From contig JAPCJH010000001.1 of the NCBI GenBank assembly GCA_027887045.1, positions 434,001 through 498,000 on the forward strand: a stretch of 64,000 bases of DNA, read 5' to 3'. The DNA is from Nitrososphaerota archaeon (GTDB lineage Archaea > Thermoproteota > Nitrososphaeria > Nitrososphaerales > Gagatemarchaeaceae). The notes under the pieces are model-generated. The model was not told the DNA's origin, ran no database searches, and saw only the letters and a list, made by a program, of their open reading frames with translations. Shown here piece after piece: positions 3,004 to 39,534 of this stretch. Made by a program: the position numbers and the translations under genes. Every line of letters starts with the position of its first letter. The stretch's first letter is position 1.

Positions 3004-5019
3004 TTATTTGCTCCTGAGCTCCCTCACTTCGGTCGCGCCGTGCGCCGCCTGCACGGTGATGACATGGGCGCTTCTGTCGAAGACCGTGAGTATGGAGGGA
3101 GTTATCACGATGTATTGGGAACCTTGCTTGCCCTTGATGTGGGAAAGTATCATTTTGAACATGGCCTCGCGGTTCTTCGGATCCATGTGGATGTCGAACT
3201 CGTCCAGTGCCCTCATCGGCGAAATGACTCTCCCCTGCAGGGAGAGGATGAAAGCCATCAGCGCCACTGACCTCTCACCCCCACTCTGGGTGAAGGGGTC
3301 GAGAGTCGTAGGTGCCGTTCCTCGGAAACCGACGTTGAGTTGGATTCCCGCGTCCTCGATGTCGCCAGCTTCCTCAAGTCTGACGAAGCCAGTCGCGTCT
3401 GTCGCTGCGAGTATCGCCTGGTAGTCGGGATTGATCCCCTCGAGCAGCCTGGTGAGGGCGTCTTTCCATACCTTCTTCCTGCTTTCGAGCTCGCCGAGGA
3501 GGACCTTCTTGTTATCCTGAAGCTTCAGTAGTTTGACCTTCAGTTCTTCGATGTTCCCGGAGTAGTCGTTGTAGATTTTCTCTGCTTCTTCAGGGACGTC
3601 TTGCAGCTTCTGCAGATGGGCCGAGACTAGCTTGAGCTCTTCTGATATCTCGTACGGTTGCCTTTGGGTCTCTATCCGTGATCCAGCCTTCTCCAGGTCG
3701 GGCCTCAACCGCTCGAGCTCGTCCTTGTACTCTCTCGATGACCTTTCCAGCTCCCTAATCTCCGACTCAGTTACTTTGATTCTATAGGAGAGCACCTCCG
3801 ATCTCACTCTGAGCGAGATGTAGGTGTCGATGCTCCTCCTGATTGTGTCGTCGATCCTTCCTATTTCGGGCTGCAGAGAGGAGACCTCTCGATCGAGCTC
3901 GCTCTTCCGTCTGCTCGCCTCCTCCACTCCCTTAACCTCCCTGTCCAACAGATAGTCGAGGAGCTCGCGAAGGCGCTTCGCGTCTTTCTGCCCCTGCTTG
4001 TCCGCAATCAGCTCGTCGATCGTCTTCGATAGGCCCTCGAGCTCGTCGTGGATTCTCTTTGTGGTGTCCCGAGTGGCCTCGTCTCTAGACCTCTCCTTTT
4101 CGGCCCTGATGAGCGCGCCGTAGAGCTTCCTGAGCTCGACCTGCTTGTCGAGCAGCGTCTGGTGGGACTTCGACGCCTCTTCTTCGACGTCCTTCTGCTG
4201 GTCTTTCAGATTCGCCAAACTCTTCACCTTGCCCGTAAGTCGATCTTCGACCGATTGGAGAGATTTCACTAGCTTCGCCTCGGTGCTCCAGACGAGTTCC
4301 TTCTCCAGCAACGCCCGATGCTCGGTTAGATTCTTCTTTTCGAGGAATCGGTCGTATATCTGCTTCCAGTATTCGAGCGCTTGGTTCGCATTTTCGATAA
4401 GCTGCGACATTGAAGTTTCCTCGCTCGTCAGCCCGTTGAGTTCATTCTCGGCGAAAAGGATCTGCTCCCTGTAGTCCGAGAAGCCAACTGCTTCTTCGAC
4501 CATCTTGAGCCTCTGTTGCGCAGAAACGGCCCCGAGCTCCTCGATCATCCCCTGGTGCATAATTATCAAGAGGTTGTCTGGATTCATCCCGAACTCCCTT
4601 AGTAGCCGGACAACTTCGCTCTTGTCGATCTCCTTGTAGTCGGCTTCAAACCAGTATGAACCGTCCTTCCTCAGATACCGACTGAGCATGAACGTATCAG
4701 ACTTGGAATATGGAATCGGACGCTTTCCGTTTTTCTGCGTGTTATCGAAAACGAGCGACACCCTTGCGATATCTTTTCCCCGCCTGATTAGGTCGCTGAG
4801 TTTCCTTGAACGCTCCGTATAGACCTGACCCAGCGCAACTGAAATTGCGAGGAGGATTGAAGACTTGCCCGCGCCGTTCGGCCCCACTATGAGGTTCAAG
4901 CCGCCTTTGAGAGGAATCCTCCCATATTCGTAGCTCATGAAGTTCTCGAGAATTATTTCCTTGATGCTCGTGAGGGTTGATTCTGCTTCTTTGGAAATCT
5001 CCTCGACCCTCTTTGACAA
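3004..5019 (-). CDS. Short hinge-less SMC-family ATPase, Smc5/6-like
   Basis: A 671-residue ATPase with TTG start. Walker A GPNGAGKS lies at residues 46-53, the ABC signature QSGGERS at about 578-584, and a Walker B/D-loop region ALDEFDIHMDPKNR at about 604-617. The last motif closely resembles Smc6 (LDEFDxxMDxxNR) rather than the typical SMC LDExDAxLD. Between the heads are two coiled-coil arms of about 170 residues, meeting near residue 340 in a short polar turn. No ~150-residue hinge domain and no CxxC zinc hook is visible. It heads an operon with kleisin-like and MAGE-like genes, pointing to a DNA-entrapping complex. It may belong to archaeal SMC-related families reported recently; this was not verified. 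Confidence 0.85.
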   Translation of the reverse strand: MSKRVEEISKEAESTLTSIKEIILENFMSYEYGRIPLKGGLNLIVGPNGAGKSSILLAISVALGQVYTERSRKLSDLIRRGKDIARVSLVFDNTQKNGKRPIPYSKSDTFMLSRYLRKDGSYWFEADYKEIDKSEVVRLLREFGMNPDNLLIIMHQGMIEELGAVSAQQRLKMVEEAVGFSDYREQILFAENELNGLTSEETSMSQLIENANQALEYWKQIYDRFLEKKNLTEHRALLEKELVWSTEAKLVKSLQSVEDRLTGKVKSLANLKDQQKDVEEEASKSHQTLLDKQVELRKLYGALIRAEKERSRDEATRDTTKRIHDELEGLSKTIDELIADKQGQKDAKRLRELLDYLLDREVKGVEEASRRKSELDREVSSLQPEIGRIDDTIRRSIDTYISLRVRSEVLSYRIKVTESEIRELERSSREYKDELERLRPDLEKAGSRIETQRQPYEISEELKLVSAHLQKLQDVPEEAEKIYNDYSGNIEELKVKLLKLQDNKKVLLGELESRKKVWKDALTRLLEGINPDYQAILAATDATGFVRLEEAGDIEDAGIQLNVGFRGTAPTTLDPFTQSGGERSVALMAFILSLQGRVISPMRALDEFDIHMDPKNREAMFKMILSHIKGKQGSQYIVITPSILTVFDRSAHVITVQAAHGATEVRELRSK

Positions 5020-5099
5020 ATCGGTTCGCTTGCGAATTCTCTACTTGTTTTTAGAGGTTGCGAAAACGCTTTAGGCTCTTTGCTTGAGCCTAGGCCATC

Positions 5100-5783
5100 T
5101 TGGTCCTCGCCGGCAAGGTATTCGTCGTTAGGGAGAAGTATGAATTATCGCTGCTCGCGGAAAAGCTCAAGACCTTCAAGATTGAATCCGAGATGAAGGT
5201 AGAGGAGACGAGCTTCGACCTCATTTCAGAGGTCAGGGACCTCGTAATTGGGAAGACAACTCTCGAAGGGACTTTTGCGTTCGACTCCGTGTTCGTGGTC
5301 AGGCACAGAGGCAAGTCCGTCCCGATCCCGAGGACGTACGAAGCGCCGTTCACGTTCGACATATACAAGGAGAGATTGTTCCTAACCGTTTATGAGAAGA
5401 AGAGCCGCGCGAACAACATTGCAAATGAGATTAGCAAAGCGGTCTTCCTCAGCCTTGGGCAGATCGTCGAGGCGAGGATTCCTCCGGAGGTGCTGAAGAG
5501 ATACCATGAAGACAACTTTGAGGACACGAAGATAATCTTCTTCGACGACGTGGATATACCGAACATTTCCAAGCTCTCGCTCTATGGCTCTGCGCTAGGT
5601 ATGACGAGCCTCTACAACGAATACCTTGAACACGGGAAGTTATGGTACACGGTCATCAAGTCGAAGAAGTACGGCTACGTTGTGGGCATCACAAGAAACA
5701 GCGTGGTCACGGTCTTCAGCAGAGTGGACCTCCCGGACTTCAAACTCTTCGTCAAGAACGAGATAATTCCGCTGATCGGATAG
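5100..5783 (+). CDS. Conserved-looking protein of unknown function, divergent from the SMC operon
   Basis: A 227-residue soluble protein read from a TTG start 80 bp from the divergent SMC-like gene. I do not recognise the family. It shows mixed alpha/beta composition, no transmembrane segment, no cysteine cluster and no nucleotide-binding loop. The phosphoesterase gene starts 3 bp after its stop, so the two are co-transcribed. The shared intergenic region with the SMC trio and the location between SMC, Lhr and phosphoesterase genes suggest a DNA-repair or chromosome-maintenance link. That is guilt by association only. Confidence 0.7.
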   Translation: MVLAGKVFVVREKYELSLLAEKLKTFKIESEMKVEETSFDLISEVRDLVIGKTTLEGTFAFDSVFVVRHRGKSVPIPRTYEAPFTFDIYKERLFLTVYEKKSRANNIANEISKAVFLSLGQIVEARIPPEVLKRYHEDNFEDTKIIFFDDVDIPNISKLSLYGSALGMTSLYNEYLEHGKLWYTVIKSKKYGYVVGITRNSVVTVFSRVDLPDFKLFVKNEIIPLIG

Positions 5784-5785
5784 GA

Positions 5786-6541
5786 TTGCTCAAGGTAGTT
5801 CCAGGAGAAGCCGCGCTCGTCTTCTCATCAGGCGACACAAAAACTATCCTCGTGTCGGACCTCCATCTCGGTCTGGAGAAGGAGATGGCGAAGAAGGGCT
5901 TCAGTGTTCCGTCTTACTCGATGAAGATGCTCGAGAGAATCAAGAAACTGGGCGAGAAGTTCGCCGCACAGAGGGCCGTGATTCTGGGGGACGTGAAACA
6001 TTCGGTAGGGAAGGTGGAGGACATCGACTGGAGTGTGCTCCCCTGGTTCTTTGGTACCCTCCTGGAGCTTTTCGGTTCGGTCGATATCATTCCGGGGAAT
6101 CACGACGCGGGGATAAAGTCGCTCCTCCCCCCGCGAGTGAGACTCCACACTTCCGGAGGTGCACTCATTGGAGAAGACGGAGACAAGATAGGCGTCTCGC
6201 ACGGCCACGCCTGGCCCTTAGAAGAAGTCATCGCGAGCGGTGACATGGTCATTGGACACTCGCACTTCACATATGAAATGAAGGATAAGTTCGGGGGGAG
6301 ATCGCGGGAGGCCGTCTGGCTTTTCGGACACTATAGAATAGAAGAGCTGATGAAGAAAGCTGGATACAAGAGCAGGCGGAGAGGCGCCGGAAGCCTCGTG
6401 GTCATGCCCCCCTTCAATCGGATGGTCGGCGGTCAGCCAATAAACAGGGGAGACCCAATGCGATTCGGACCCGTGTTGTCTTCTGGGTCGGTGAAACTGA
6501 GTGAGTCAGACATATTCTTGCTGGACGGTACGAGAGTCTAG
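5786..6541 (+). CDS. ICC-type metallophosphoesterase (COG1407-like)
   Basis: A calcineurin-like phosphoesterase of about 251 residues. The metal-binding motifs appear in order: SDLHLG (D-x-H), LGDVKH (GD), GNHD and GHSH, with an SHGH motif between. The start is taken as the TTG at 5786, just after the upstream stop; a longer frame would overlap that gene needlessly. This family frequently accompanies Lhr helicases in archaea, and an Lhr gene is about 4 kb away. The substrate is unknown; a nuclease or phosphodiesterase acting on nucleic acid is the usual assumption. The C-terminal ~60 residues are basic. Confidence 0.85.
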   Translation: MLKVVPGEAALVFSSGDTKTILVSDLHLGLEKEMAKKGFSVPSYSMKMLERIKKLGEKFAAQRAVILGDVKHSVGKVEDIDWSVLPWFFGTLLELFGSVDIIPGNHDAGIKSLLPPRVRLHTSGGALIGEDGDKIGVSHGHAWPLEEVIASGDMVIGHSHFTYEMKDKFGGRSREAVWLFGHYRIEELMKKAGYKSRRRGAGSLVVMPPFNRMVGGQPINRGDPMRFGPVLSSGSVKLSESDIFLLDGTRV

Positions 6542-29230: not shown

Positions 29231-29397
29231 TCCAGCACAGGGTGGACGCATCAGCGTCGTTGTTAAAATAGGAAAGGTGGCCAGGAGTGTGTTAGCAAAG
29301 TGGTTTGTGCCACGGCCGTTCACGAATTATGGGAAGATGCTTTTCAGTCCTGACTGCGTGGGTGATTAAGTAGTGCGATAAACTAGAATTATTGGAA
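29231..29397 (+). other. Intergenic stretch, no assignable gene
   Basis: 167 bp between the Trm112-like gene and the homing endonuclease. An open frame of about 48 codons (29222-29371) ends in GKMLFSPDCVGD but lacks a convincing start and matches nothing I know. A TATA-like gataaacta lies near 29372-29380, shortly before the endonuclease start. Confidence 0.3.
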
Positions 29398-30159
29398 ATG
29401 ACGAGATTTCAAGAGAAGACACCCGCGAGCATGGCAGTCGTCGAGACGAAGGAATCATGTGAATTCAGCAGCCTTAAGCAACAATTTCAATCCATCGGCG
29501 GAAGCAATCAGCATGGCTATGGGAATTGGTGCGCTGTCGCTGCGTACTTTGATGGAGACGGGAGCGTCTTCGTGTCACGGAAGAAGTTTTACAATGTTAC
29601 ATTTGTTTTGGAATGGTCTGACAACTACTCACCACAACTCGTTCAGCTTCGAGACTTCTTCATAGCCAACGGAATCAAAACCGGTGAAATAACACAAAGG
29701 AGAGCGGAAAATCTCTATCGACTTAGAATCTCCGGCCGAGAATCCATCTTCAATACCGCGAGAGGAATGTTACTCAGCATGTGCACGTTCAAGAAGAGGA
29801 GAGAGTTAGCCTCGGTAGCGGAGTATCTCCAAGGTACGGTGGAGGGAAATGAAGTCCTGAAAGTGCTTAATGAAGAAGCGGAAGCAGGACAGCGAGTGTC
29901 AAAGAAACGGTACGCGCTTGATTTGCCCTTCACGCACTCCGAAGGCGTCGCTATTGCTCGCGAAAGGATGAGAGAAGGAACGCGGCACTCATCAAAGTCG
30001 AGGGCAGTACTGACCAAGAGACAGGTGGAGGACATTCGGAGAGCCTATGAGGAATCAGGGACACCACAATCAAAGCTTGCCCAACTATGCCGTGTCTCTA
30101 GGGCGACCATTGTACGAGCATTGGGACGCGAAAGAGGCCATGTAGCTACCTCGGACTAG
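29398..30159 (+). CDS. LAGLIDADG homing endonuclease with C-terminal helix-turn-helix
   Basis: About 253 residues from ATG 29398. The LAGLIDADG-type motif reads AVAAYFDGDGSV (about 47-58) with the acidic catalytic residue; only one clear copy is visible, so it may work as a dimer or hide a degenerate second copy. The C-terminus (about 205-250) is a resolvase-like HTH: LTKRQVEDIRRAY then SKLAQLCRVSRATIVRAL. It is not inside an intron or intein; it stands 65 bp before the intron-bearing tRNA-Trp. It is the only mobile-type gene in the window. Confidence 0.85.
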   Translation: MTRFQEKTPASMAVVETKESCEFSSLKQQFQSIGGSNQHGYGNWCAVAAYFDGDGSVFVSRKKFYNVTFVLEWSDNYSPQLVQLRDFFIANGIKTGEITQRRAENLYRLRISGRESIFNTARGMLLSMCTFKKRRELASVAEYLQGTVEGNEVLKVLNEEAEAGQRVSKKRYALDLPFTHSEGVAIARERMREGTRHSSKSRAVLTKRQVEDIRRAYEESGTPQSKLAQLCRVSRATIVRALGRERGHVATSD

Positions 30160-34732: not shown

Positions 34733-34757
34733 CTACCGCCAAAGTCGAGAAACCATG

Positions 34758-34889
34758 GGGGTCGTCGGCTAGGCCGCGAGGTTGATTTTGCTACTCGACC
34801 AAGCGGGGCTAGTCTGGTCTAGGCTTCAAGCCTTGGGTCTGCAGCAGCAGGAACGCTTGAGATCCCCGGTTCAAATCCGGGCGACCCCA
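34758..34889 (+). tRNA. tRNA-Pro(UGG) with a D-arm intron and a canonical intron
   Basis: Acceptor GGGGTCG (34758-34764) pairs with CGACCCC (34882-34888), A73 at 34889, no CCA encoded. T-arm CCCGG-TTCAAAT-CCGGG. Anticodon stem CAAGC (34827-34831) pairs with GCTTG (34855-34859); loop CTTGGG gives UGG with G37, as in tRNA-Pro. A 16-nt intron (34838-34853) lies at 37/38. A 40-nt insert (34773-34812) lies in the D-arm, bounded by a GGCTAG direct repeat, so the exact cut is ambiguous by 6 nt. Mature length is 76 nt. Confidence 0.87.
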
Positions 34890-34934: not shown

Positions 34935-34962
34935 GTGTCAAGGAGTTAAATACTTTTGACAC
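34935..34962 (+). promoter_or_regulatory. Inverted-repeat operator over the TATA box of the NrdD-like gene
   Basis: GTGTCAA (34935-34941) and TTGACAC (34956-34962) form a perfect dyad with a 14-nt spacer that contains the TATA-like gttaaatac. A further GTGTCAA half-site lies at 34996-35002, just inside the gene. The protein made from this gene has an N-terminal winged helix, so autoregulation is a simple hypothesis. Confidence 0.5.
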
Positions 34963-34976
34963 GAGGGCTCTGAGGG

Positions 34977-37064
34977 TTGCAAGCGGCGCCGAGACGTGTC
35001 AAAACAATCTACAGCGTGATAGCTTCTCCTCAGAGACTGGAGATTCTTCGTATATTGAACATCAAAGGTCCGCTCACATATAGCGCACTCAAGACCCTTG
35101 CGGGGTTCAAGTCGAAGAAGGAATCGGGGAAGTTTGCGTACCATCTGAGGAAACTCGTGAGACAGTTACTGATACAGTTGAACAGACAAGAGAGGAAATA
35201 CACGGTTACCAACCTGGGGAGACTCGTTTTGAATCTTACGAGGCAGATCGAGGAACAGTCGCTGGTCGAGAGCGGCAAACTGTACGTCAGGACGTCTCAC
35301 CAGACGATGGAAGAATTCAACGCGAACAAGATACTTCAGTCTCTCGTGAAAGAGGCGGGCATGCCCGTTGAGCTGGCGCAAAAGATCACCAGCGAGACTG
35401 AGTCGAGGCTGTACAAGTTCCAGACCCAGTACCTAACCGCACCCCTGATCCGTGAGATGGTGAACGCTCTCCTCGTCGAGCATGGTATGGAGGAGTACAG
35501 GCACAAGCTCACCCGTCTTGGGATGCCAATCTATGATGTCACCCAGTTGCTAGGGAGGGCCGGTGACGACGGAGGCAACGTCGAGTCTCTTGTTCATCAG
35601 ACCGGGAAAGCTGTGTTCTCCGAATACCTACTGCTCGAACAATTGCCGAGAGACGTTGCGGATGCGCACTTGAACGGAGATATCCACATCTCCAGCGCAG
35701 GATCTTGGGGTCTAACTCCGGATACGGTTTTCATAGATCTCCTCACAGTCAAAGGGGCAGGATTCAACCCCAAGGGGAGGCTCACCAATGTTTCAATGCT
35801 CCCTACTCCAGAGAACGCCGAAAGGGCCGTAAACATCGTTACTACGCTGGCTTCCTTGCTCTCGAGAGAGGCCTCGGTTGAGATAACATTCAGGAACTTC
35901 CTTCAGTACCTGGCTCCATATTGCAGGTCCAGGACGAAGAGGGATCTCGAAGCGATTCTAGTCAGGTTCTATGAAGCCGCGTCGGCGGCTCTAGGTTCGA
36001 GCGGCGGTCCTGCAATTACCATTGAACTGGATCAGTTCCGACATGATGACATCGGCAGGGATCTGATGGAGAAGACACTCGAGGCGACGCTGGGCGCCTA
36101 TCGAGACTTTGTAGAATACACTCCCCGCCCCGATGTCAGACTTTTGCTCGCAAAGCCAAACAGGGTAGAGGAAACTGGGATGCTCAAAAGAGCCGCCGCG
36201 ATCCTCTTCAATGGTGGGCGAATCGCGTTCTTTTCTCCGAACCAAAGAAGGAGTTTCTTAGGAATCAACGCGGACGTGTTACCTCAAGAGATGCAGGCGG
36301 ACAATATGAGTGTCCTACACAACCTCAGTTTGAACCTGCCACGACTAGCCTACGACTCGAACCAAGACGAGACCTATTTGCGAGCGAAGCTCGCCATGCT
36401 CATCGGCATTGCCGGAGACGCTTTGGCGGCGAGGAGGAGGGTTATCGAAAGAGTCTTGAAGAAGGGACTCCTGCCTACGCTCGGGATGGGTTCAGAGGCG
36501 GTCACGTCAGATATGATGCCTCTCATCATGAATCTAGTCGGGCTGGACGAGACGCTGGGACGCCTTATTCGCGATCCTTCCACCGAATCTAGTTCGATGC
36601 TTGCCGAGAAGATAGTCCAGACGGCTTCCCAAGTAGCCGTAGAAAAATCCGGAAAGAACGAGAGACTCGGGGTCGCGATGATTGACGAGGACGGAGCTGC
36701 AAGGCTCGCTGCTCTGGACGCCGAGAAATATGGCAAGGCTAACACTTCACAATCTCTGAAATCGGGCTACAGTCAGGCACCGAGACTGGTCCTCGCAGAC
36801 TTGGAGAGTCAGGAGAAGCTGAACTACATCAACAAGCTCGCGCTGAACCTTGCTGGCGGAGTCTCTGTGACCCTAGATGGCGCGGGGGACGATATTAGGA
36901 GCGTGTACAACCTCGTCGTTGCAGCCGCGCCCAAACTCTCCTTCTTCAAGATCGATAGGACAATCTCTGTCTGCCGGAGCTGCGGAAGCAAACTCGCTCT
37001 TAATTCAACGAGGTGCAGAAGGTGCAAGTCGGTGGCGACTGTGCACTACTCGACGGCGGGTTAG
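34977..37064 (+). CDS. Winged-helix / ATP-cone / NrdD-like protein lacking the glycyl-radical site
   Basis: 695 residues from TTG 34977. Domains: ArsR-like winged helix (about 10-90; SPQRLEILRILN, YHLRKL), ATP-cone (about 102-185; KLYVRTSHQTMEEFNANKIL), then an NrdD-like anaerobic ribonucleotide reductase fold, ending in a zinc site CRSC...CRRC. The protein stops ~12 residues later, so the C-terminal glycyl-radical loop of true NrdD is absent, and few cysteines remain in the barrel. I infer a pseudoenzyme regulator that senses ATP/dATP. It lies directly upstream of nrdJ, like a functional counterpart of bacterial NrdR. Confidence 0.8.
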   Translation: MQAAPRRVKTIYSVIASPQRLEILRILNIKGPLTYSALKTLAGFKSKKESGKFAYHLRKLVRQLLIQLNRQERKYTVTNLGRLVLNLTRQIEEQSLVESGKLYVRTSHQTMEEFNANKILQSLVKEAGMPVELAQKITSETESRLYKFQTQYLTAPLIREMVNALLVEHGMEEYRHKLTRLGMPIYDVTQLLGRAGDDGGNVESLVHQTGKAVFSEYLLLEQLPRDVADAHLNGDIHISSAGSWGLTPDTVFIDLLTVKGAGFNPKGRLTNVSMLPTPENAERAVNIVTTLASLLSREASVEITFRNFLQYLAPYCRSRTKRDLEAILVRFYEAASAALGSSGGPAITIELDQFRHDDIGRDLMEKTLEATLGAYRDFVEYTPRPDVRLLLAKPNRVEETGMLKRAAAILFNGGRIAFFSPNQRRSFLGINADVLPQEMQADNMSVLHNLSLNLPRLAYDSNQDETYLRAKLAMLIGIAGDALAARRRVIERVLKKGLLPTLGMGSEAVTSDMMPLIMNLVGLDETLGRLIRDPSTESSSMLAEKIVQTASQVAVEKSGKNERLGVAMIDEDGAARLAALDAEKYGKANTSQSLKSGYSQAPRLVLADLESQEKLNYINKLALNLAGGVSVTLDGAGDDIRSVYNLVVAAAPKLSFFKIDRTISVCRSCGSKLALNSTRCRRCKSVATVHYSTAG

Positions 37065-37156
37065 GTTCAACTTCGTCAGGGAAGAAACCGCGAAGAGTTC
37101 AAGTCAAAAACAATCCACTTCGAACCCTCTCAAGTGAGCCGAACTTTCTCATTAGA

Positions 37157-37202
37157 GTCTGGTTTTTGTCAATGTTAGACTAGCCACGCCAGACTTATAT
37201 GC
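37157..37202 (+). promoter_or_regulatory. nrdJ promoter with inverted repeat
   Basis: GTCTGG (37157-37162) and CCAGAC (37189-37194) form a dyad next to the TATA-like cttatatgc (37194-37202). A ttgtcaa sequence (about 37167-37172) resembles the TGTCAA half-site before the upstream regulator-like gene. The TATA box is ~15-20 nt before the assigned TTG, so initiation at or just after 37216 is expected. Confidence 0.4.
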
Positions 37203-37215
37203 GGCGCGCTAGGGT

Positions 37216-39534
37216 TTGCGGGTTACAAAAGGCGATGGAATTTTGACGTCAGCAGTTGAACAACCACGGGACGATGCGGACTTGGTTGCAGAGAAGAGCG
37301 CGGAGTTTAGGCTCCCACAGGAGACGCTCGCCGCTTTTGGAGGCGATGAGCTACGGGCACGTGTCTTTTACGAGAAGTACGCCCTGAGAGATGCCTCGGG
37401 GAAGCAGATCGAGAAGACGCCGGATCAGATGTGGCGCAGGGTCGCCACGGAACTCGCCTCGGTCGAGAAGGACGACGAAAAGAGGAGGGAGTGGGCGGCG
37501 AAGTTCTATTGGCTGTTGGAGGATTACAAATTTGTCCCAGGGGGAAGGATTCTGTTCGGCGCGGGGCAACCCAGAAACGCCACGCTACTCAATTGCTATT
37601 TCTTCAAGATCCGAGAGGATTCGATAGAGGCAATCTTCGATTTCTGCAAGGAATCAGCGAGGACATATAGCTATGGGGGAGGGGTCGGGACTGATATCTC
37701 GGTACTTAGGCCGAAAGGCGCGCTGGTAAACAACGCGGCGATCTACAGCTCCGGCTCGGTCTCGTTCATGGAGCTACTTTCGACGACGACCGGAACGATC
37801 GGCCAAGCCGGAAGGAGGGGAGCGCAGATGATTACAATCAGGGTGGACCATCCTGACGTCTTGGACTTCATCAACGTCAAACGGGACTTGAAGAAGGTGA
37901 ATTACGCGAACATCTCGGTGAAGATCACGGACGCTTTCATGCGAGCAATTGAGAACAACGAAGACTTCGAACTCAGCTTCAAGAACGAGAAGGTCGAGAT
38001 CCATAGAAAAATTCCCGCCAGACAGATCTGGACGGAACTTATCAAAGGAGCCTGGGAGTCTGACGAGCCCGGGGTACTTTTCTGGGACACCCTGAAGAGG
38101 GATTCCACAACAGAATACAACAACATGGAGGTCGAAGGGGTCAACCCCTGCAGCGAGCAGACGCTGGAGAACTACGGCTGTTGCTGCTTAGGATCAGTGA
38201 ATCTGAGCGCATTCGTCAAGGAACCGTTCACCGACCACGCGAGCATCGACTGGGACGCGCTTGTCAGGGGAACACAGTTTGCTGTAAGGTTCCTGGACAA
38301 CGTGCTGGACTACAACGCGGACAGGCACCCTCTACCGCAGCAGAAGAAGGCTTCGCTCTGGAGCAGGAGAATCGGGGTGGGTATCACAGGTCTTGGTGAC
38401 ATGCTGATTAAGCTGGGTCTGAAATACGACGAGGATGCGACGATCGAGTTCGTCGACAAGCTCTTCGAAAGAATCACGAACGTAATCTACGATTACTCAA
38501 CCGAACTCGCACCCGAGAAGGGTGCATTTCCAGCGTTCGACGCAGAAAAACACCTTGCCCAGCCATTCGTCAAGAGGCTCGACCCGAAAGTCAGGGAGAA
38601 GATTCGTGCCCAAGGAATAAGGAATGCGGCCATCACAACGATACCACCAGTCGGCTCCGGCTCGATACTTGCGGGAAGTTCCAGCGGAATCGAACCGGTA
38701 TTCGCTCTCGCATACACGAGGAGAAGCAAATCCCTCAGCGAAGGCGAATTCAAGGTCTTCCATCCGCTCGTCAGGGAGTACATGAAGACCGTGGGAGTCT
38801 CCGACGTGAACCAGCTGCCAATCTATTTTGTCACGTCTCATCAGATCAAGCCCGAGATGAGGGTAAAGATGCAAGGGACGATTCAAAAACACATCGACAC
38901 GGCGATCTCAAGTACCGTCAATCTCCCAGAGGAGATAACACCGGAGCAGGTCGAAAAAATCTACCTCCTTGCATGGAAGCAGGGGTGCAAGGGGATCACC
39001 ATCTACAGAGAAGGAAGCAGAGAGGGGATTCTGGAGACGGAAAAAGCCTCAAAGAAACAGTCTGCCCGGTTGGAAGCTGAGTTCGAAAGGCCGAGAATAC
39101 TGAGCGGTAGGACTCTGAAGCTTAGACTGCCACAGGGCGGGCTATACGTGACGGCGAACTCCGAAGGCGATTCTATCAAGGAGGTCTTCCTAAACATCGG
39201 GAAACTGGGAAGCGACGAAAAAGCCGACGCTGAAGCAATGGGGAGACTCATCAGCCTCTACATGCAACACGGAGGAGACATCAAGCACGTGATTTCGACG
39301 CTGAAGGGAATCAAGGGGAAGTACGTCTCCTGGGACGAAGGGGTCCAGCTCCTTTCCATCCCTGACGCGGCCGCGAAGGCGCTCGAACTCCTCGTAGCGA
39401 ACACCGTGGTAAAGGAGTCAGCGGGACCCGTGTCACAAGGTGGCGCGGCCTGCCCTGAATGTCACGAGAGTACACTCATCTTCGAAAATGGATGCTACAA
39501 ATGCACGAGCTGTGGATACAGCAAGTGCGAGTGA
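37216..39534 (+). CDS. nrdJ: Adenosylcobalamin-dependent (class II) ribonucleotide reductase
   Basis: 772 residues. RNR barrel motifs include FVPGGRILFGAG, NCYFF, GGGVGTDIS, NPCSEQ (active-site Cys/Glu: N-x-C-x-E) and TIPPVGSGS. The C-terminus carries a redox/zinc motif CPEC...CTSCGY...C. This is the B12-dependent enzyme making deoxyribonucleotides independent of oxygen. It has its own TATA box and follows the winged-helix/ATP-cone protein that may control it. No class I or active class III RNR is seen in the window. Confidence 0.95.
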   Translation: MRVTKGDGILTSAVEQPRDDADLVAEKSAEFRLPQETLAAFGGDELRARVFYEKYALRDASGKQIEKTPDQMWRRVATELASVEKDDEKRREWAAKFYWLLEDYKFVPGGRILFGAGQPRNATLLNCYFFKIREDSIEAIFDFCKESARTYSYGGGVGTDISVLRPKGALVNNAAIYSSGSVSFMELLSTTTGTIGQAGRRGAQMITIRVDHPDVLDFINVKRDLKKVNYANISVKITDAFMRAIENNEDFELSFKNEKVEIHRKIPARQIWTELIKGAWESDEPGVLFWDTLKRDSTTEYNNMEVEGVNPCSEQTLENYGCCCLGSVNLSAFVKEPFTDHASIDWDALVRGTQFAVRFLDNVLDYNADRHPLPQQKKASLWSRRIGVGITGLGDMLIKLGLKYDEDATIEFVDKLFERITNVIYDYSTELAPEKGAFPAFDAEKHLAQPFVKRLDPKVREKIRAQGIRNAAITTIPPVGSGSILAGSSSGIEPVFALAYTRRSKSLSEGEFKVFHPLVREYMKTVGVSDVNQLPIYFVTSHQIKPEMRVKMQGTIQKHIDTAISSTVNLPEEITPEQVEKIYLLAWKQGCKGITIYREGSREGILETEKASKKQSARLEAEFERPRILSGRTLKLRLPQGGLYVTANSEGDSIKEVFLNIGKLGSDEKADAEAMGRLISLYMQHGGDIKHVISTLKGIKGKYVSWDEGVQLLSIPDAAAKALELLVANTVVKESAGPVSQGGAACPECHESTLIFENGCYKCTSCGYSKCE

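Follow-up and report, generated by a model that had tools for sequence, protein, structure and literature searches.

A putative archaeal regulator of ribonucleotide reductase genes combining a winged helix, an ATP-cone and an inactive NrdD body

NrdR is a bacterial repressor of ribonucleotide reductase (RNR) genes whose sites are located close to the start of its own gene and close to RNR genes, an nrdRJ promoter in Streptomyces coelicolor among them (PMC9110341). NrdR is reported to be rare in archaea (PMC9110341, PMC12176259), and the NrdR box is reported to be absent there (PMC4009431). This scarcity of NrdR and its box raises the question of how RNR transcription is adjusted to demand in archaea.

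Here, we have analyzed a stretch of 64,000 nucleotides (hereafter the window) from a Nitrososphaerota archaeon (G000) whose genome is 56% complete and 1.2 Mb in size and whose close relatives are recorded as Thaumarchaeota, Nitrososphaerota or Nitrososphaerales MAGs. The window encodes a protein that is probably an autoregulated, nucleotide-sensing transcription regulator of RNR genes, derived from a dead class III RNR and a winged helix. Full-text searches of the open-access literature revealed no description of this regulator family. NrdR proper (TIGR00244) is scarcely represented in the phylum, exceeding the cut-off in 22 of 300 genomes, all of them in family f5.

The features of the locus are listed in Table 1. 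The start of nrdJ is probably the TTG at 37243 (MTSAVE) rather than the in-frame TTG at 37216. No RNA genes were reported near the locus by ARAGORN or Rfam; by eye, the stretch at 34757-34889, which ends in GGTTCAAATCCGGGCGACCCCA matching GGGGTCG far upstream, resembles an intron-bearing tRNA gene before the regulator, and nothing was reported there by ARAGORN (bacterial mode) or Rfam. Elsewhere in the window, a 255-aa open reading frame (29392-30159) has no Pfam match at E ≤ 0.001 and contains AYFDGDGSV, which we take to be a LAGLIDADG-like stretch.

Table 1. Positions of features at the regulator-nrdJ locus of the window
Feature	Position	Strand	Basis or remark
Outer dyad GTGTCAA-N14-TTGACAC (arms 34935-34941 / 34956-34962)	34935..34962	.	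Left arm not conserved as such
Candidate autoregulatory operator TGTCAA-AAGTAT-TTAAC	34945..34961	-	Overlaps TATA box
TATA box TTAAATAC of regulator	34946-34953		
Putative regulator gene (winged helix, ATP-cone, inactive NrdD body)	34977..37064	+	Open reading frame, TTG start, 695 aa
Predicted winged-helix DNA-binding domain, residues 8-92	34998..35252	+	Pfam DUF7347 at residues 11-85
ATP-cone, residues 103-174	35283..35498	+	Pfam PF03477 match and residue conservation
NrdD-fold body without catalytic residues	35574..37061	+	Pfam NRDD, alignment, structure comparison
Finger-loop region FFSPNQRRSFLG, no Cys (thiyl-radical Cys position of active NrdDs)	36219..36272	+	
C4 zinc site (C666, C669, C680, C683)	36972..37025	+	Retained
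Further dyad before nrdJ, AGTCTGG / CCAGACT	37156-37162 / 37189-37195		
Candidate half-operator TTTTTGTCAA upstream of nrdJ	37163..37172	+	Right half-site lost in window
nrdJ, adenosylcobalamin-dependent class II RNR without ATP-cone (lgN, barrel, TSCPD)	37243..39534	+	

Architecture of the encoded protein

In Pfam, the 695-aa protein matches the DUF7347 winged helix (37.7 bits, cut-off 27.6), the ATP-cone PF03477 (31.8 bits, cut-off 25.8) and, at residues 442-687, NRDD (98.3 bits, cut-off 26.2), and the product of the downstream gene was identified as NrdJ by TIGR02504 (549.6 bits, cut-off 399.95). A preliminary description of this locus had proposed a winged helix, an ATP-cone and an inactive NrdD body followed by nrdJ, with a zinc site and no glycyl-radical loop, and both points are borne out by these matches and by residue alignment: the four zinc cysteines are present, and RVxGY is absent from the window protein, which stops 12 residues past the zinc site. 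Membership in NrdR was rejected, since no TIGR00244 match was found in this protein at E ≤ 1 and its N-terminus is a winged helix, not a Zn-ribbon.

Residues were compared after aligning 44 regulator-family proteins, each from a different locus, with 12 active archaeal NrdDs (eight from Methanosarcinales and four from the same phylum), using the columns invariant in the active set and the numbering of L034. Active-site Cys221, thiyl-radical Cys450 and the RVTGY glycyl motif are present in 12 of 12 active NrdDs versus none of the 44 regulators. Of the adjacent Cys450 and Cys451, we take the former to be the radical cysteine; the latter is found in two regulators, and both together in none. The Thr, Gly and Tyr columns of the glycyl motif are occupied by these residues in zero, three and two of the 44 regulators, respectively, and the C-terminus of L128 (RTASGYLPLS), a protein that also lacks the Cys, is not aligned to this motif. 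Three zinc cysteines are retained in 39-41 of the regulators. As for the ATP-cone, R60, E81 and R124 occur in all 44 and E125 in 41, and R105, E126 and R159 of the window protein are identical in all regulators and in the 12 active NrdDs.

An AF2 model built from a 37-sequence alignment (pLDDT 73, pTM 0.67, with the winged helix poorly modelled) has class III RNRs as its best matches, with a Foldseek E-value of 2.4e-21 to 4col and VIA-align Z scores of up to 29.6 (1h78: Z 29.5, 3.2 Å, 448 residues); in this model, the window protein has the NrdD barrel fold. The body is almost certainly a catalytically dead class III RNR. Although the NRDD family match and the NrdD-like fold might also be expected of a working anaerobic NrdD with an additional DNA-binding domain, such an enzyme is hardly conceivable here and was rejected, because the radical Cys, the second active-site Cys and RVTGY are absent from every regulator in the alignment, and NrdG exceeded the cut-off in none of the 101 genomes of the order, among which the window genome is 56% complete. 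NRDD itself was found in 92 of these 101 genomes. Among the matches listed, only G330:C30 is a high-scoring true NrdD whose match extends into the glycyl part at the C-terminus, and nearly all other NRDD matches listed in the order end near position 531 of 562. Since profile libraries assign regulator proteins to NrdD models, an anaerobic RNR may be attributed in error to their hosts during genome annotation. Shortened regulators of 545-637 aa are found at L139-L146 (families f12, f17, f33 and f9); several of them have lost the zinc site or the C-terminal portion, in keeping with an NrdD body that has ceased to act as an enzyme.

The winged-helix columns of the alignment are occupied in 43 of the 44 regulators and in none of the 12 active NrdDs, and the protein is very probably a DNA-binding regulator. 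An SGKFAYHLRKL helix is identical in the window clade and in the other sampled families of the order, and its identity in the window clade and f2 fits a half-site common to these two groups.

Gene neighborhood and distribution

Linkage to nrdJ, whose survey had been envisaged in the preliminary description, was defined as location on the same strand at a distance of less than 2.5 kb. By this measure, 85 of 92 genomes and 16 of 17 families of the window's order have the regulator ahead of nrdJ; nrdJ is interrupted in a would-be 86th genome (G370), and true loss or broken contigs are alike possible for the remaining six. Among 26 relatives collected by protein similarity (L002-L027), nrdJ lies downstream in 24, and the other two (L017 and L027) end at a contig edge. 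The linked NrdJ proteins belong to different types, namely barrel plus TSCPD without an ATP-cone (window), NrdJ with an ATP-cone (L111) and the Ribonuc_red_2_N type (L026), which implies that the position of the regulator has been kept despite differences in the type of reductase gene. In-frame, intein-like insertions were observed in nrdJ at L007 (3409-4394), L018 (3882-4537), L020 (8596-9623) and L023 (10179-11284); L002 has a gap (5015-5962) at the same place, and the window nrdJ carries no insertion.

Considering that the window NrdJ has no ATP-cone and that the two genes adjoin in 85 genomes, the protein might be thought of as a pseudoenzyme partner that brings an ATP-cone to NrdJ and uses its winged helix for autoregulation only. 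This is quite improbable, as the NrdJ of L111 has an ATP-cone of its own, the regulator is linked to different NrdJ types and RNR classes, and the candidate operator discussed below stands upstream of nrdJ. A role of the regulator in transcription of the neighboring RNR gene is the reading that we prefer.

Outside the order, an RNR gene lies directly downstream in five of the 34 regions read, and 29 have no adjoining RNR gene. Downstream of the regulator, nrdJ was found in L128 and active nrdD in L129 and L130, while in L125 and L131 a glutaredoxin-like gene precedes the active nrdD; nrdD is also downstream in L179, L180, L182, L183 and L184. Of 44 clustered loci, 20 contain pyrB, which encodes aspartate carbamoyltransferase, and 13 contain pyrI. 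In L121, L126, L118, L119, L132, L142, L147, L148 and other loci outside the order, pyrB adjoins the regulator on the opposite strand, and in several of them pyrI is located beyond pyrB on the regulator's strand. Pyrimidine synthesis is a second common neighbor, which may be a target or merely a trace of ancient gene order.

Protein searches of 300 genomes drawn from the phylum produced matches in 220, a number to be read as a maximum for the regulator, given that some of the weak matches could represent true NrdDs or different proteins with an ATP-cone; 40 regions were picked from this search, one to three per family and mainly high-scoring. Judged from such matches, the regulator family is old and widespread in the phylum, and its hosts probably include ammonia-oxidizing archaea, a label that we inferred. 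In a maximum-likelihood tree whose root is not fixed, the 12 active NrdDs are placed on one side of a branch with a support of 100/100, which allows a single origin of the regulator.

Candidate operators at the two promoters

In the window, the candidate autoregulatory site is complete save for one departure at an outer base, and TGTCAA-N6-TTAAC with at most one mismatch was found once versus 0.58 expected, which alone is not beyond chance. Upstream of nrdJ, TTTTTGTCAA was found once versus 0.11 expected in the window, which is not strongly beyond chance, and the case for an operator rests therefore on the relatives. In the window clade, 17 of 24 own promoters contain GTTAAATAC-NN-TTGAC, the same palindrome as the nrdJ operator, in a position overlapping the TATA box (mean of 0.00 in shuffles that ignore kinship). 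Among 23 regulator-nrdJ gaps of this clade (L010 was left out as a near-copy of L009), TGTCAA is present in all upstream of nrdJ and TGTCAA-N6-TTNAC in 18, compared with means of 1.19 and 0.02, respectively, in shuffles equally blind to kinship, and TTGTCAA is present in 20.

These data qualify what had been said about the two promoters in the preliminary description. The GTGTCAA/TTGACAC dyad reported there does flank the regulator's TATA box but is only half conserved: the outer arm GTGTCAA varies in relatives, which keep the inner GTTAA-N6-TTGAC, and the outer dyad was rejected as a conserved operator. The TGTCAA-like and dyad sequences reported before nrdJ exist as TTTTTGTCAA and AGTCTGG/CCAGACT; of the nrdJ operator, the window keeps only the TTTTTGTCAA half-site, whereas the suggestion of an operator common to both promoters holds in the relatives at the level of sequence.

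Placement across genomes provides stronger evidence for the operator than shuffles, which ignore common descent. When 20 whole genomes were scanned for TGTCAA-N6-TTNACA, 18 rows were obtained from 15 genomes, corresponding to 16 distinct sites because two were matched on either strand; 13 sites are located in the regulator-nrdJ gap, two in the regulator promoter (in the clade nearest the window) and one elsewhere, and the reversed pattern gave three matches. The operator lies 75-79 bp upstream of the nrdJ TATA box in all 15 loci measured in the window clade. For the f2 site, GGTGTHAA-N5-TTGANC, 16 matches were found in 25 genomes, 11 of which are in the regulator-nrdJ gap, four inside reading frames and one (G096) intergenic; since the reversed pattern gives 15, the evidence in f2 is placement and not number. 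Over the 25 f2 loci with a site, its distance to the TATA box clusters at 29-31 and 40 bp upstream, values approximately one helical turn apart, with L087 and L106 as misfits. From the f2/f3/f4 set, L111 and L112 were left out as the same loci as L082 and L085. In the regulator-nrdJ gaps of L082-L110, the operator is accompanied by the conserved palindrome TATGAANTTCATA and by CGATCAT/TTTGATCA words that recur.

Elsewhere in the phylum, the paired TGTCAA operator was found before none of 29 unlinked nrdJ genes, and single TGTCAA/TTGACA words without a palindrome precede four of them (L161, L165, L166 and L176). A TGTCAA operator common to all nrdJ genes of the phylum was thus rejected, and the set of targets would differ between lineages. 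With regard to linked nrdD, TGTCAA precedes the gene in L129, L130, L131, L179, L180 and L182 and lies further downstream in L184; none was found in the regulator-nrdD gaps of L125 and L183, the former having one TTGACA within the glutaredoxin gene. As it occurs in some loci only, TGTCAA before nrdD is not general. The regulator-nrdD gaps of L125, L131, L129, L130, L179, L180 and L182-L184 also contain a conserved AT-rich element, roughly ATTTTATAC then TCTAAAAATNTTAAGTA, before glutaredoxin/nrdD, which could be either a core promoter or another control element.

The absence of the operator from unlinked nrdJ genes, together with the 29 of 34 regions outside the order that have no adjoining RNR gene and often have pyrB instead, would also suit a regulator that controls itself and something else, the nrdJ operator belonging to another factor and the linkage being inherited gene order. 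We regard this as unlikely, considering that the same half-site is found in the regulator's promoter and before nrdJ and that the linkage spans different nrdJ types. It is likely that the regulator binds the TGTCAA-N6-TTNACA operator and controls both nrdJ and itself.

Proposed role and comparison with known systems

We propose that a class III RNR lost its chemistry, gained a winged helix and became a transcription regulator of ribonucleotide reductase. The NrdD body would hold a dimer or higher oligomer whose winged helices bind the operator, and ATP versus dATP in the ATP-cone, perhaps together with dNTPs at the old specificity site, would switch DNA binding; that the protein senses adenine nucleotides through its ATP-cone is reasonably likely. 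By masking its own TATA box, it would repress its own gene, and it would tune nrdJ transcription to the dNTP pool, the adjoining gene for the living enzyme being probably under its control.

The direction of this control is less certain. The chances that the regulator is a net repressor of nrdJ appear evenly balanced, and activation also fits, since the nrdJ site lies upstream of the TATA box and not on it. A protein that activates nrdJ, or that activates or represses according to its nucleotide state, is possible but somewhat doubtful: the upstream distances (75-79 bp in 15 loci, or mostly 29-31/40 bp) are in its favor, and two spacings about one helical turn apart suggest contact with the basal machinery on one face of the helix; however, the own-promoter site overlaps the TATA box, the usual place for repression, and ATP-cone regulators known from the literature repress (PMC9110341, PMC12176259). 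Of the earlier proposal of an NrdR analogue, the dead NrdD body, the ATP-cone, the winged helix, the linkage to nrdJ and the common operator stand as far as sequence goes, and repression would be one of two possible modes of control.

A wider reading, which we offer tentatively and with slightly less than even confidence, is that a whole RNR became, in a single early event in the history of the phylum, a nucleotide-reading transcription factor that replaces NrdR as the main RNR regulator and stays in place when the RNR gene downstream is exchanged for one of another type or class. Its body would read ATP/dATP in the cone and possibly also dNTPs at the former specificity site and NTPs at the active site that is now dead. 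The family provides a concrete candidate RNR regulator for a single large phylum, in which as many as 220 of 300 genomes may carry it, and, if the proposal is true, a clear case of an enzyme turned regulator of its own former pathway. What appears to be new here is a putative ATP-cone regulator of RNR whose DNA-binding domain is of another kind and whose body is a dead enzyme.

Compared with NrdR, which consists of a Zn-ribbon and an ATP-cone, the regulator likewise has an ATP-cone plus a DNA-binding domain and sites near its own gene and RNR genes, those of the regulator being predicted from sequence, with only the own-promoter site complete in the window; however, a winged helix takes the place of the Zn-ribbon, an NrdD body of ~500 residues is present, and the operator, TGTCAA-N6-TTNACA, differs from the NrdR box acaCwAtATaTwGtg quoted in PMC4009431. 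With class III RNR NrdD, it shares the ATP-cone, the fold and the C4 zinc site, but it has neither the active-site cysteines nor the glycyl-radical loop, has an additional winged helix, and belongs to an order in which the activase NrdG was not over the cut-off. With DUF7347/ArsR-like (HTH_20) regulators, it has in common a DUF7347 winged helix over the cut-off, which in this case is joined to an ATP-cone and a body of RNR origin.
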